A stretch of DNA of 64,000 nt from assembly GCA_001599715.1 (NCBI GenBank), contig BCHU01000014.1:248001-312000 (forward strand). Direction: 5' to 3'. Shown in pieces: positions 4,298 through 64,000 of the stretch. The stretch is from Phaeotremella fagi. Lineage: Eukaryota; Basidiomycota; Tremellomycetes; Tremellales; Phaeotremellaceae. A program made the position numbers and the translations under genes. Numbering within the stretch: the stretch's first letter is position 1; every line of letters begins with the position of its first letter. Under the pieces are notes generated by a model. The model was given only the letters and a program-made list of their open reading frames with translations. It ran no database searches and was not told the DNA's origin.

Positions 4298-6323
4298 CTA
4301 TAACAAAGTTTCAAATTCCTCTAAATCCTTAACAATATCACCGGAAGTTTTTCTACGTGAACGTGGACCGACTCCATTCAAATCACCAGTTGTAGTCTGT
4401 ATCTCAAGATTCTCAATCCCGTTCTCGTCCAAACGAGGTAAAGCGTTAGCATTCCATCTGACTTCAGGTCGATTCATTGCTAAAGCTTGTTCTACGTCCA
4501 TTGAAGCGTCTGAATCCTCTCTGGGTCTTTCATGTACTTGACCTAGGATTTGAACTTGCAATTGATCCCGGGTGGGTGATGGTGGTCCTGAAGCGAACAT
4601 GTCTTTGAAATCCATTCTTGTTTCCGTTTGATCGACATTCATTTGACCTGGCGTCTGGAGTTGAGCCATGTGATCGTCCTGTGTATGAATCAATGTCTGT
4701 TTCTCTTGTTCCTTGTTTTTTTTAACTCACCGATGAAGACGATGATCCGGGATTTCTGTAATGTCTCCAAGCTATTTTCATTCCCTGCTAATGTTAATGG
4801 TCTGCTCCCTTGATAGACATTCGACTCACTCTACGTAAACTTGGATCGACAAAGATAGCTATCTGCATCTGACGTGAGAAAGGTATTCTTTCACGAGTCC
4901 AAACTTTAACTTACGATCGCGAAACATGTGCCCCTGAAATTCCATAGAACGAAATACAATTGGAAAAGAACTAATTCTCCGACATTGTTAACACCGTTGG
5001 CGGAGGTATACAGATCTCCCACTAGAGTACGTCAGTATTTCACCTTGTGAGAATGACACTGACTGGTCAGACATACCTGAGATGATAACGTTGATAACCA
5101 ATAAGACGACTGGATAAGCCGAAATTCGTAAAGCAATACCAACGAATCTATGTCTCAATTGATTGAGTGACTGCACATCATCATCTCTACAACATCCCTT
5201 TCCACGTTTCAAATGACAAACGAATCGACCAACAACACCTTTCCTTGGACAATCAATTTTTTCATTGAAATCTTGACTAGAGATTCCGAATAATCTCTTG
5301 GTAGTTCGACCTCGAGTGTACAGTGAGAACACTGTCATTAAGAACGTGACGAGGGAAATGAAGGCGGCTAGAAGTTGCCATAGATACTTTTCTGTCAGGG
5401 GTGGGATTGAAAGGTTGGACTTACGAAATCAAGAACGAAATATTTCATTCTGACATCGGGATCGGCTACAAAAATTTTAAATGGCTTGTTTCTGGCTACA
5501 CAGTAGAAATAATGATAACATACAAGGAGTAAACCAACTGAGATATTGAGTTAGTTACGATTGATTCATCCACAGTTCTATTTACCAAGCACCGATTACA
5601 GGATCAGGTCCAAAATGTCCCAGTGCAGCAGGGACGATTCCAAGTGTCATGCCGATGAATAGCGAGATACCGATGTACCATTTCTCTAAACCTGGAACAG
5701 ATCAGGTTGTGATGGAAAGAATGAGACTTACCTAGAGCGACGGGATCGAGATCGAAACAAATCGTCAACATCAAATTAACAGCGATAAAAGCGCAGAGGT
5801 AATTAACCCTAGAGCATCATACAATGAACAAAGCTTCATATGCCGGATTCAATTTTTACACTCACACAGCTAAACTTGAAACGACGAAGAAAAGGTCTGC
5901 TATACATGTACCCTCATATCCAGGGAACCAATTGTTGAAAGCGTTATCTCCCTTGAATCACAAACCCCAGTATCAGCTTCTTAAAAGCCTTTGTTTCATC
6001 CCAAACAAAACCTACCATCAATGTCCCGATACCAAACGGTATTTCAAAAGTCATCGCCCATAGAAGTAATCTGAATGATATTCTGTTCAAACTTGATCTA
6101 GCTGGTTTACATCTGTAAACCCAGGCTGATGCACAGAGGAAAAGGATCGCTAGAAGTATACTCAGAGCGCAAACGGTGTTTGAAAGTATATAAGCGATCT
6201 TGAGACGTTAGTTCTTCCTTTTCATCGTAAACATACCTGAAGATTATCCGGGGTCAATGTTGTCAACGGTGAAGCATCTGTCAATGCCCCATCGTCCATT
6301 CCAGTGTTGGTGTCGTCACTCAT
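4298..6323 (-). CDS. Seven-transmembrane receptor, GPCR-like
   Basis: A multi-exon gene; the first four exons are 6237-6323, 6016-6198, 5866-5951 and 5732-5808. The spliced product starts MSDDTNTGMDDGALTD, a short acidic extracellular-type tail, followed by seven hydrophobic helices. Examples are a first helix around ALSILLAILFLCASAW, a third around CIADLFFVVSSLAVVNYLC and a sixth around ISAYPVVLLVINVIISV. A cysteine precedes helix 3, as in many GPCRs. Between helices 5 and 6 lies a basic loop with several cysteines, and the C-terminal tail of about 130 residues (last exon 4298-4690) is hydrophilic. The arrangement resembles the cAMP-receptor/Git3-like fungal GPCRs. The ligand and subfamily are unknown. 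The exon 5 donor that keeps the frame is non-consensus (GTGCTT), so that junction is uncertain. Confidence 0.7.
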
Positions 6324-59542: not shown

Positions 59543-61429
59543 ATGTTCTCTAAATTCGCTACTCGAAGCACTTTCAAAGTCTCACCTCGAATCCGAAATG
59601 TCGCTTTTAACTCTACGGTTGCTGGTACGGGAAAACAAACGGCACGACAACAACTGCTGACGTTAAGGGAGATAGATAGGTTGTTAACGTCAGTAGCCAG
59701 TGAGTAAGAGAAAACCAATGCTCAAAGTAATCCTATTGACGATGGTATCAAGAACACTCTGATAGCACAGTCCTTCATCCATCACCTTTATCCATGAGAG
59801 CACAAAGTACACCATGGTTATCATCCCATACACCAGATTTAGTTTCACCCTCAACAGCCAAAGATATACAATCTCAACACTCTGCTGCACCTCTGACGGA
59901 ATTGGAGAAAACTGAAATGCTACGACCTAAACATATGAGTGAGAGTTATACGAGTTTCGATTTACCTCTCGCGAGTGATCCTGTCCTATACGATAAATAT
60001 GTAAATACATCTGGTGGATTCAGTGAGTACCACATCAGGTTATTTCTCATTATGGATTGTGACTGATACTACGTGATCTAGGGATGGGGAAACTCATGGA
60101 ACATCTGGATTCTTTGGCTGGGGCAGTCGCTTATAGACATTGTTTACCTACACCCAAAAGTTCTTCGAAAGATAGTACACAGAGTTTTCTGGAGGCTTCC
60201 TCAAAAGCTGGATTATATTTGGCTACAGCTAGTGCGGATAGATTAGATATGTTTGGTAGATTGAACAGGGAGAACGTTCGGTATGTGTTCAGCTCCTTGT
60301 TTCGTGCTCGTAATTATGTATACTGAACTTTAGCATTCAGTGATCTGACATTCTCTGGATTCGTCACGTACACCGGTAATTCATCCATGGAGATCTTCGT
60401 GAAAATGGAAGGAACCAGACCTACCTCCACCTCCTCAACTGAATCACCAGAAACCTTGATGTTAGGTAGATTCTCGATGGTATGTCGAGATTCCAAAACC
60501 CACAAAGCTAGAAAGGTACCACCGCTACTCGTTGAGACAGAGGAGGAGCGGGTGTTATGGTCAATAGGCGAAGATAACAAACGACAGAAAAAGGAATCGT
60601 CGTTGTTAGCCTTGGATAAGGTTCCGCCTAGTTCGGAAGAGGCGAAGGAGTTGCATGAGTTGATGTTGAGAGTTGATGAAGATCATGTTGGAGAGATTGA
60701 TGGTGGTAAAGTTGTCAAGATGAAGGATACTGAGGTAAGTTTGGTGCACATTCACTTTTATTTTTATTCTTATTTTTGTTTTCATGTTTGACTGATTGTC
60801 ACAGATGGAATCGGTTCAATTGATGTTTCCTCAAGATCGAAATTTGCATGGAAAGGTTTTTGGTGGTATCTTGATGAGATTGGTGAGTGGCACCGCTGTC
60901 TTGTATGTGGACACATTACTGATCGTAATTAGGCATTGTGGGTAACTTTGTTAAATGTGAATATTTACTTGCTCACCCCCTGAATAGCGAACTATGCTTC
61001 ACAAACGCTGCAATTCTGGCTTCGAAACCAATGAAATTCCTGTCTCTCGATCAAATCACTTTCAGACTCCCCGTACCCATAGGTGCAGTACTCAGACTAT
61101 CGTCTAAAGTCGTGAAAACAACTCAGCCACATGAAGGTATCGACGGAGAAGCCAAGGCTCATATCATCGTTAAAGCTGAGGTTGAAGAAGTGGAGACTGG
61201 TGTACGTTCAACTATCCATTCTTTGCATATCTTTACAGCAAACTAACGTGTGTAGTCCCGTTTGGAAACTAATACCTTCTCATTTACTATGGCTATGGAA
61301 GATAGGACTCCTATAGGGAAAACCGTAGTTCCTTCAACTTACAGTGAGGCTATGGATTATTTGGAAGGTAAAAGGAGATTGGCAGTTGGTGATGAAATGA
61401 GGAGATTGTATCAGGCTGGTGTACCATGA
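59543..61429 (+). CDS. ACOT9-like mitochondrial acyl-CoA thioesterase
   Basis: The start MFSKFATRSTFKVSPRIRNV is a mitochondrial-type presequence. Two hotdog domains follow: MGKLMEHLDSLAGAVAYRHC with TFSGFVTYTGNSSMEIFVKM, and MESVQLMFPQDRNLHGKVFG with GGILMRLAFELCFTNAA and MKFLSLDQITFRLPVPIGAV. The second-domain join needs a 5-nt exon (60933-60937) between two 50-nt introns. Other junctions were resolved by frame: TCAAG acceptor near 59750, CATTCAG acceptor near 60338, and a GTACGT donor after VEETG. It hydrolyses acyl-CoA to free acid and CoA. The substrate chain length is unknown. Confidence 0.85.
60933..60937 (+). other. Five-nucleotide exon of the thioesterase gene
   Basis: The bases GCATT lie between a TTAG acceptor and a GTGGGT donor. 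They complete MRL-A-F-ELCF in the conserved hotdog helix (GG-LMR-AYEL in ACOT9). Without them the frame is lost. Confidence 0.6.
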
Positions 61430-61478
61430 TGTCATGTATCATATATCGGTTTTTTTTTCTTATCAGAGTAAATTACTT

Positions 61479-61683
61479 TGTGGACTTCTTTTCATTTAAC
61501 AATATTTTGTGGAGCTGTGTTGCACTCGAGTTTTATCCTCCTTTTTGCGTTGTCTTCGCCGATTGTTATTTGAAGACGGAATTGGGGACTTCTTTTCCTC
61601 TAACATTTTTTCGTGGAGCTGCGTTGCATTCGAGTTTTATTCTCCTTTATGTCTAGTCTTGGTCGATCTTTTGGAAGGCGGGA
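61479..61683. repeat. Imperfect tandem duplication, period about 104 bp
   Basis: Two adjacent copies (about 61479-61579 and 61583-61683) share GGACTTCTTTTC, GTGGAGCTG, GTTGCA, TCGAGTTTTAT and CTCCTTT in the same order with point differences. They lie directly upstream of the first gene of the tandem family. Confidence 0.75.
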
Positions 61684-61807: not shown

Positions 61808-62335
61808 ATGTCCGCATCCTCCGAATCAAATGAGTTCACCATCGATTCGTTAAAAAAATACGTTGAATCCAAAATGGACCATTACAAGGTTGATGGTTAT
61901 CTCACCACAAATACTTTCTTGGGACAAGCAATCGGAATGAATTGTATAACTAAAACAATTAAAAGTACAGACGGAGCGAGTCACGACAACATCGATGTTT
62001 GGAAAATCGATCGGTCATTTCCCCAATATGCAACCAAAGATCAGAAAGAATTCGGTCTCGATATCATGCTGGCTGTGAGTAGCCTTTTCGAAATTGATGT
62101 TGAGGAAAATTACAGACCCAGTGGGTGTCCTGCAATCAGTCGTGCTTTCTGCCAATTGTTCAGACCGGAAGGTGAACGACAGAAGGCGGTTATCGAAGAG
62201 AGTAAAAAGCTCGCATCGGGGTATAAAACTGATCCTGGGCAATTTGGTGAGGAGGTTAGAAGTCGCTTGGAGGTCTTTGATCCCGACTCAAAGATGTCTT
62301 TGGAGTGGGAAGGCTTTGAGTCTGTACAGGGTTAG
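61808..62335 (+). CDS. Tandem orphan family, gene 1 (intronless)
   Basis: A single exon of 175 residues, start MSASSESNEFTIDSL. Features shared with the next two genes: NEFTIDSLKKYVESK (residues 8-22), a Trp-Lys after a variable stretch (WK at 65-66), DIMLAVSSLF (85-94), ESKKL (131-135) and a closing LEWEGF (165-170). It is soluble, without signal peptide or membrane helix, and I recognise no domain. The absence of introns contrasts with nearly every other gene here. It is preceded by a TATA box and the 104-bp tandem repeat. Function unknown. Confidence 0.7.
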   Translation: MSASSESNEFTIDSLKKYVESKMDHYKVDGYLTTNTFLGQAIGMNCITKTIKSTDGASHDNIDVWKIDRSFPQYATKDQKEFGLDIMLAVSSLFEIDVEENYRPSGCPAISRAFCQLFRPEGERQKAVIEESKKLASGYKTDPGQFGEEVRSRLEVFDPDSKMSLEWEGFESVQG

Positions 62336-62733
62336 AGAAAGTAGAGGAAGGTCTAAATAGGCAAGAAGAGATGTATGATAGTTGGTAGCTGAATGGATAA
62401 CATTTGTACATAGAAACCAAAGATCAATAGTGTAGGGAGAGAAAAGTAAGAGTAAATGAATGCATGTGAAAGTTGTTAAACCCCTCCAACCTTCTGAATT
62501 GGTCTTTACATCAGTCGTCCTTTCTATTTTCCGAAAGAAAAGGAAAAAATCCTGTAGAAATGGATGTTACTGTATCATTTTCTCCTCCTTTGAATCACGC
62601 CTTCTGGCATTTCGTTCCCAGGAGGCAGGTGGCAAGAAAACAATATCCCCTTTTACACTAAGATTGTTATCAATTCAAACAATCACAAATCAGTCTCTAT
62701 TCTCTTATCCTGAAGAGCATACATAAAGATAAT
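62336..62733. other. Intergenic between family genes 1 and 2
   Basis: Holds the 3' region of gene 1, including a 27-base element shared with the 3' region of gene 2, and a region before gene 2. No other gene was seen. Confidence 0.5.
62452..62478. repeat. 27-base element shared downstream of genes 1 and 2
   Basis: It shares 23 of 27 bases with 63373-63399; the common core is AATGCATGTGA followed by AGTTGTT. It lies about 117 bases after the gene 1 stop and about 127 bases after that of gene 2. Confidence 0.65.
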
Positions 62734-63246
62734 ATGTCCACCCCCACCCCCAACCCCAACCCCACCCAGTCTCCTGCAGAGGACAATGAGTTCACCATCG
62801 ATTCGTTACGAGATTACGTTCATGGCAAGATCCAACAGCCCAAAGAAAATTACGAGAAGAGCTTCTTCGACTATCACCTCAAGGCATCCTTCCGTAAACG
62901 TAGTAGTGTGAGGAGTGTTGATGGAAACTGGTACTCCGACATCGAATCATGGAAATTCAAACCAAAATTGACTGGTTGCGAAAAACAATTTAGTACCGAA
63001 ATCATGCTTGCTGTCACAGCAATTGTCAAAGACAACGTCGACCGAAATAAGAACAATGAAATCGGTAGAGGATTAGTCGCCCATTCGTTCGTTCGATTGA
63101 TCAGTCGGGATCAGACTGATGAGGAAAAAAAGTTGTTGGAATGGAGTAAGAAGCTTGTGTCTGATTATACATACAAACAGCTCAGAAGTCAGCTAGAACT
63201 ACTTCACGATGATAAATGGACGTTCATGACGTGGGAGGGGTATTAA
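62734..63246 (+). CDS. Tandem orphan family, gene 2 (intronless)
   Basis: A single exon of 170 residues. A Pro/Asn-rich lead (TPTPNPNPTQSPAED) precedes NEFTIDSLRDYVHGK, identical to gene 1 in NEFTIDSL at both protein and DNA level. WKFK, then STEIMLAVTAIV, EWSKKLVSDY and a final TWEGY correspond to the shared elements of gene 1. No recognised domain, signal or membrane helix. Function unknown. Confidence 0.7.
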   Translation: MSTPTPNPNPTQSPAEDNEFTIDSLRDYVHGKIQQPKENYEKSFFDYHLKASFRKRSSVRSVDGNWYSDIESWKFKPKLTGCEKQFSTEIMLAVTAIVKDNVDRNKNNEIGRGLVAHSFVRLISRDQTDEEKKLLEWSKKLVSDYTYKQLRSQLELLHDDKWTFMTWEGY

Positions 63247-63689
63247 CCGTACTGGTGAGCGGTTAGTAGATGGCTGGAATTTACGGAGATCGTATGTGGT
63301 GTGTGAATGGCGGAAAATTTCATGTACATGAGGATCGATAGTATACTGTAGTGAGAGTGACAGAAAGAGGAAGTAAACAAATGCATGTGACAGTTGTTTA
63401 GCATTCCAATCCCATTACCCATTGTTCTGCTTTCAGAGTCGTCTTGACAATTTCACTACAAGACTTTGTACCCATACTATATAACCTCTCAAGTAAGTAA
63501 GAGGCCTCTGATCGATTTCACCGTCATAGCGCTACTTGCTTCTTCAAAGCCATTGCGCTGAAGACGTATCCTCCTTTGATCAATGGACTTCTGAGACTCA
63601 TTTCATCGAAGGCGTGGCGGTGGCGTGGAAAATAATCAGGATTGTAAATGATTTGACCATTTGAATATATACAATAAACTATTTTGAAC
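63247..63689. other. Intergenic between family genes 2 and 3
   Basis: Holds the second copy of the 27-base element and a TATATAA at 63478-63484, about 205 bases before gene 3. A minus-strand open frame here overlaps the gene 3 start and shows no support. Confidence 0.5.
63373..63399. repeat. 27-base element, copy after gene 2
   Basis: Partner of 62452-62478, with four base differences. Confidence 0.65.
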
Positions 63690-64000
63690 ATGTCCCAATC
63701 TACATCAGACACTGTTCCAAAAAATGAACCATCAGATCTCACAATAGAAGAATATCGCCAGTACGTCGACAAGCACGTTAATAAAGGGGTATTTCACTCT
63801 CGCCTCGATTTCATCCAAAGCACTCTCAAATTAGAATGGACCGAGAAAACGGGCGAATGGCATGATAATGAACTGTGGTCAGTAAGTACAGGTGTTGTTG
63901 ATCGTGCGTGTTGGGAATGGGAAGATTACCGACGTCCAGGTGATAAGATCGTTGGATATCTAGGTCCTGAAATCATGCTCGCCACAGAGGCTATCCTTCG
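63690..64000 (+). CDS. Tandem orphan family, gene 3, 3' truncated by the window
   Basis: The start MSQSTSDTVPKNEPSDLTIE is followed by LTIEEYRQYVDKHV, which aligns with the FTIDSL-x2-YV element of genes 1 and 2. GYLGPEIMLATEAIL aligns with EIMLAVTAIV. The frame is open without an intron to the last base. It is the most divergent of the three visible members. The array may continue outside the window. Confidence 0.65.
   Translation, partial: MSQSTSDTVPKNEPSDLTIEEYRQYVDKHVNKGVFHSRLDFIQSTLKLEWTEKTGEWHDNELWSVSTGVVDRACWEWEDYRRPGDKIVGYLGPEIMLATEAIL

Follow-up and report, generated by a model that had tools for sequence, protein, structure and literature searches.

The window analyzed here is a 64,000-nucleotide stretch of DNA (C14:248001-312000), at whose right-hand edge lie three consecutive genes, all on the plus strand: copy 1 at 61808-62335 (175 aa), copy 2 at 62734-63246 (170 aa) and copy 3 from 63690 to the edge at 64000, where it is still open. 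Each is an uninterrupted single open frame, as the preliminary description of this DNA had it. The whole of copy 3 (203 aa) spans L009:3690-4301; L009 is the segment C14:308001-318000, in which position p corresponds to window position 60000+p. The upstream neighbour gene, judged by eye, has frames interrupted by GT...AG stretches.

The three genes have an ordered set of short elements in common. The first, (F/L)TI(D/E) followed by YV, reads FTIDSLKKYV in copy 1, FTIDSLRDYV in copy 2 and LTIEEYRQYV in copy 3; the second, built around (E/D)IMLA, reads DIMLAVSSL, EIMLAVTAI and EIMLATEAI, respectively. SKKL occurs in copies 1 and 2, which go on to WEGF and WEGY, respectively. All the elements described earlier are in place, but the WEG(F/Y) that was called final is not so in copy 1, which runs on for five further residues. 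Complete copy 3, beyond the window, lacks SKKL and has WSGYQP as its C-terminal end.

The array and its flanks

Extension of the locus to the right, which had been proposed as a way of counting copies, gives an array of about five rather than three, arranged head to tail, all on the plus strand, at C14:309808-314587. Copy 4 (L009:4776-5402, plus strand) is a single frame of 208 aa and a weak relative of the others. Copy 5 (L009:5902-6587, plus strand; 65902-66587 in window numbering) is in two pieces that lie in different frames, the first being 5902-6216; this two-frame state may reflect a pseudogene, a tiny intron or a sequence error. Short frames of 71-88 aa are also found between or across the five copies. 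Downstream of the array is a gene that starts at about L009:7068 and is, by eye, seemingly split by introns; it contains an SH3 stretch at L009:9422-9529 (36 aa, cut at a GT chosen by eye) that covers positions 1-32 of the 48 in the domain.

Two kinds of repeated DNA element flank the genes. Just upstream of copy 1 is a direct repeat of 86 nt (61478-61667, plus strand; 83% identical, spacing 104), and a search with this region returned no other genome match at E <= 0.001. Downstream of copy 1 is a 27-nt element (62451-62477, plus strand) that is 89% identical to its counterpart downstream of copy 2 (63372-63398, plus strand), and this core sits in a 56-nt match between the two flanks (77%, E 1.5e-6). 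When a single mismatch is allowed, the 18-nt heart of the element has three genomic sites, two of them those beside copies 1 and 2. The third, at C5:1060241-1060258, lies a short way past the stop codon of a Ser/Arg-rich open frame that is unrelated; it may be a chance occurrence, because the reversed pattern also finds one place.

A second cluster and the strength of homology

The family is not limited to the array, for a second cluster of two copies (C1-A and C1-B) lies on another contig, C1, as two single open frames at 718.1-719.7 kb on the minus strand. The genome searched comprises 22.6 Mb in 24 contigs, and seven queries were used: copies 1-4, the first piece of copy 5, and both C1 copies. 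Copy 3 found both C1 copies (E 2.4e-4 and 0.039) as its best matches elsewhere, and the C1 copies as queries found copy 3 (E 5.6e-4 and 0.048) and, reciprocally, each other (E 9.0e-17 and 7.6e-17). Copies 1 and 2, which are 34% identical, found each other only (E 5.2e-14 and 3.7e-14), and the first piece of copy 5 found only itself. Copy 4 found itself and no other member; its one further match, on C2 at E 0.42 (frame read), looks like chance, as does a match to C1-A at C1:1677313 (E 0.87), which has four internal stops. No member beyond the seven was raised by these queries; the genome searches score the best candidates only and seven is therefore a lower bound on family size. Frames are intact in six of the seven copies, copy 5 being the exception.

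A degenerate DNA pattern for G-x-E/D-I-M-L-A has 15 places in the genome (three for the backwards pattern). Four of these belong to known copies, and by eye none of the remaining 11 is a family frame; the pattern does not fit copies 2, 4 and 5 and hence is blind to members like them. Three frames in the neighbourhood of the C1 pair were tested by profile and are not members: L020:4165-4779 (minus strand, 204 aa) and L020:5161-5622 (plus strand, 153 aa), which adjoin the pair, and L021:7562-7984 (minus strand), which is near it. The two L020 frames have no Pfam match above the curated cut-off.

How good is the case for common descent? The five core members (copies 1-3, C1-A and C1-B) were each scored with a profile built from the remaining four, giving 35.4 bits for copy 1, 45.8 for copy 2, 44.7 for copy 3, 64.8 for C1-A and 69.2 for C1-B; the maximum among 5 x 1000 shuffled sequences was 9.6 bits, so that none of the 1000 shuffles per core member scored as high. 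These leave-one-out scores rule out chance or shuffled similarity, and the likeness is well clear of shuffled sequence, the yardstick set in the preliminary description (35-69 bits against at most 9.6). A profile of copies 1 and 2 alone, run against 848 open frames (some counted twice, since the window and L009 overlap), recovers copy 3 at E 0.015 and, more strongly, the C1 pair (E 0.0005 and 0.0012); the next-best match, at E 0.11, is a chance one. The paralogy and tandem duplication proposed earlier hold up well, with likeness far above shuffles in head-to-tail frames on the same strand.

The first piece of copy 5, which was outside the training set, is found among the 848 frames at E 0.0029 with a profile lacking copy 4 and at 1.7e-4 with one that includes it, the best backwards-read frame in the same profile search being at E 0.38. 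The second piece by itself does not reach significance (E 2.3 and 0.25 among the 848 frames); 22 of 1000 shuffles score as high with the five-member profile and none with the three-member profile. For copy 4 the five-member profile gives 8.2 bits, where the best shuffle reaches 7.7, and the three-member profile gives 7.2 bits, a score reached by one shuffle in 1000; with the profile of copies 1 and 2 this copy has no score, and its E among the 848 frames is 0.13. Its membership is likely, not certain, in view of its position in the array and the word FRSWV that it shares with copy 5. By these scores homology is judged strong for five members and weaker for copies 4 and 5. In the tree, copies 1 and 2 are the sole supported sister pair (96/99), and terminal branches have lengths of about 0.8-2.7 changes per site.

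Database searches and orphan status

A database of about 5.8 billion proteins yielded nothing at E <= 0.1 either for copy 3 (32 candidates) or for an alignment of six members (1262 candidates). This database holds many Kwoniella proteins, because the control, a Rds1/ferritin-like neighbour gene to the right, in L010, finds them: 11 of its first 13 matches are named Kwoniella records at 71-76% identity. The search is, however, seeded on shared five-residue words, and 20 of the 21 pairs of members (with copy 5 represented by its first piece) have at most one such word in common. Copies 1 and 2 share five, and the C1 pair, which match at about 1e-16, share none. Relatives as divergent as these paralogs would therefore be missed by a word-seeded search.

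Profile collections gave similarly little. With the six members searched singly, no Pfam family exceeded its cut-off (best E 0.019; 0.04 for the first piece of copy 5), and there were only weak matches in NCBIfam (best E 0.046, to citrate lyase subunit gamma, from one of the six members) and in PHROGs (best E 0.063). Against PDB sequences the best match of the six-member profile, to a designed binder, was at E 0.098 and that of a three-member profile at E 1.1. The earlier remark that no known domain is recognizable is thus in accord with the lack of a significant match in Pfam, NCBIfam, PHROGs or PDB sequences. Copy 4 matched PF06857, an acyl-carrier-type Pfam family, at E 0.082, which does not reach the cut-off; this and the citrate lyase match in NCBIfam may both come from a single weak signal.

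Copy 3 was searched against prokaryote genomes, and both it and copy 2 against viral contigs. These searches, which are sensitive to close relatives only, returned pattern matches of which none was confirmed, and so lend no support to a bacterial or viral source. Among the literature matches listed, and judging by title, there was no paper on such a family. If confirmed, the finding would give what is probably a Kwoniella-like relative of Cryptococcus an uncharacterized protein family, represented about seven times in its genome. The family is likewise a clear case of paralogs invisible to one another in a word-seeded search, and bears on how far 'orphan' labels stem from the limits of searches.

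Age, selection and proposed function

The codon-usage score is highest, of all six frames, in the reading frame of each of the six full members and of both copy 5 pieces. Six of the 15 pairs of full members were used for codon-position and Nei-Gojobori figures. In each of these six pairs conservation is greatest at codon position 2 and lowest at position 3; identity at positions 2, 1 and 3 is 0.64, 0.50 and 0.43 for copies 1 and 2, against 0.28, 0.27 and 0.25 in shuffles, and position 2 identity over the six pairs is 0.50-0.64 against 0.26-0.28 in codon shuffles. Copies 1 and 2 are the closest pair by pS and pN (0.71 and 0.42), the other five pairs having pS 0.75-0.82 and pN 0.49-0.60. For this closest pair the Jukes-Cantor correction puts dS at about 2.2 and dN at about 0.6, values that are rough near saturation, as any dN/dS figure must be when pS is close to its ceiling.

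With synonymous sites at or near saturation and position 2 best kept, the array is an old one, held under purifying constraint on average. The combination of low dS and dN/dS above 1 that marks a recent adaptive expansion was not seen in the six pairs of the 15. The terms 'expanding' and 'possibly adaptive' used of the family in the preliminary description are accordingly not upheld: pS (0.71-0.82) exceeds pN (0.42-0.60), position 2 is the best conserved, and one copy is in two frames. That the downstream flank of copies 1 and 2 has outlasted near-saturated synonymous sites suggests that the element there is a common 3' control signal.

Two AlphaFold models, which rest on the same three window sequences and so are not independent, have pLDDT of 45 and 48; both show helix, helix, two strands, a long EIMLA helix, and further helices. 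Foldseek found nothing at E <= 0.001 with either model (best E 0.28 and 0.19). The only invariant residues in the six full members are M, I, L and W, none of them polar, which speaks against an enzyme; the role proposed below is deduced from such missing features. Most N-termini are by eye polar and not hydrophobic leaders, C1-A (MMEGIIYT...) being less clear.

The family of uncharacterized proteins is thus genuine and old, and its copies are both in tandem and dispersed. The reading that we prefer, and give about an even chance, is that of an old, fast-diverging array family of Kwoniella-like fungi whose proteins, of about 170-210 residues, would serve within the cell as a protein-interaction module without enzymatic activity. 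Unequal exchange that duplicated gene plus flank would have built the array; one copy would have been transferred to or from contig C1 and then duplicated there; and purifying selection would retain the copies even as some are gradually lost. Copies 1 and 2 may keep their common 3' control signal through the downstream element.

Several other explanations deserve consideration. The genes could be members of a known and widespread fungal family, too far diverged for detection by sequence, their orphan status being a failure of search. The scarcity of the five-residue words that the protein search needs (0 or 1 in 20 of 21 pairs) and end branches of about 0.8-2.7 changes per site fit this, but profile searches, with best E values of 0.019 in Pfam (six members) and 0.098 and 1.1 against the PDB, tell against it, and on the whole we doubt it. 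A family engaged in genetic conflict (allorecognition, antiviral or spore-killer-like), in which copies differ so as to recognize different partners, would be in keeping with the tandem array and second cluster, the strong divergence between copies and the copy in two frames. That position 2 is best conserved, that pN is below pS in all six pairs, and that no Pfam family comes above its cut-off all count the other way, making such a role distinctly unlikely. Also improbable, and considerably more so, is a new-fold family restricted to Kwoniella-like fungi that uses its multiple copies for recognition or for telling self from non-self, copies 1 and 2 being linked by a shared, conserved downstream control element. 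That the frames are chance ones, or non-coding repeats taken for genes, is scarcely credible: the lack of known relatives, and nothing else, speaks for it, whereas homology far above shuffles, in-frame codon usage and the codon-position pattern contradict it, and for copies 1-3 and the C1 pair it is refuted.

A divergent histone-fold family, supplying chromatin or transcription-factor subunits, was weighed on the basis that the long EIMLA helix, the loop and, in the C1 copies, the 'NDIAWAL' helix might correspond to histone helices 2 and 3. The histone motif is xLxxNDIAxALxK, and by eye VLINKNDIAWALSK looks like the end of a histone fold; the helix-loop-helix end of the C1 copies likewise resembles, by eye, this motif of the histone-fold families (PF00808, PF00125). 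Moreover, hhalign scores of 16.0 and 18.4 lie above the maxima of 13.6 and 15.1 reached in 100 column-shuffled controls. The hhalign probability is, however, only 0.6-1.5%, over 33 and 22 columns, and histone-fold families are absent from the Pfam matches of the six members at E <= 10, a list that HMMER's filtering strips of most matches above 0.1. The stretch between the start of the EIMLA helix and the key position of the next helix counts 26-31 residues in the core five and 44 in copy 4; histone helix 2 is of near-constant length and longer. With no significant profile match, a different helix spacing and no confident fold, the histone fold is not supported, and we regard it as very improbable.

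The closest parallel to the old, slowly eroding array that we favor may be the taxonomically restricted tandem families of fungi, which likewise consist of short single-frame neighbours with no known domain and strong divergence, one copy being in two frames. What sets the present case apart from these is the age of the array, with its synonymous sites near saturation, and the second cluster on another contig.
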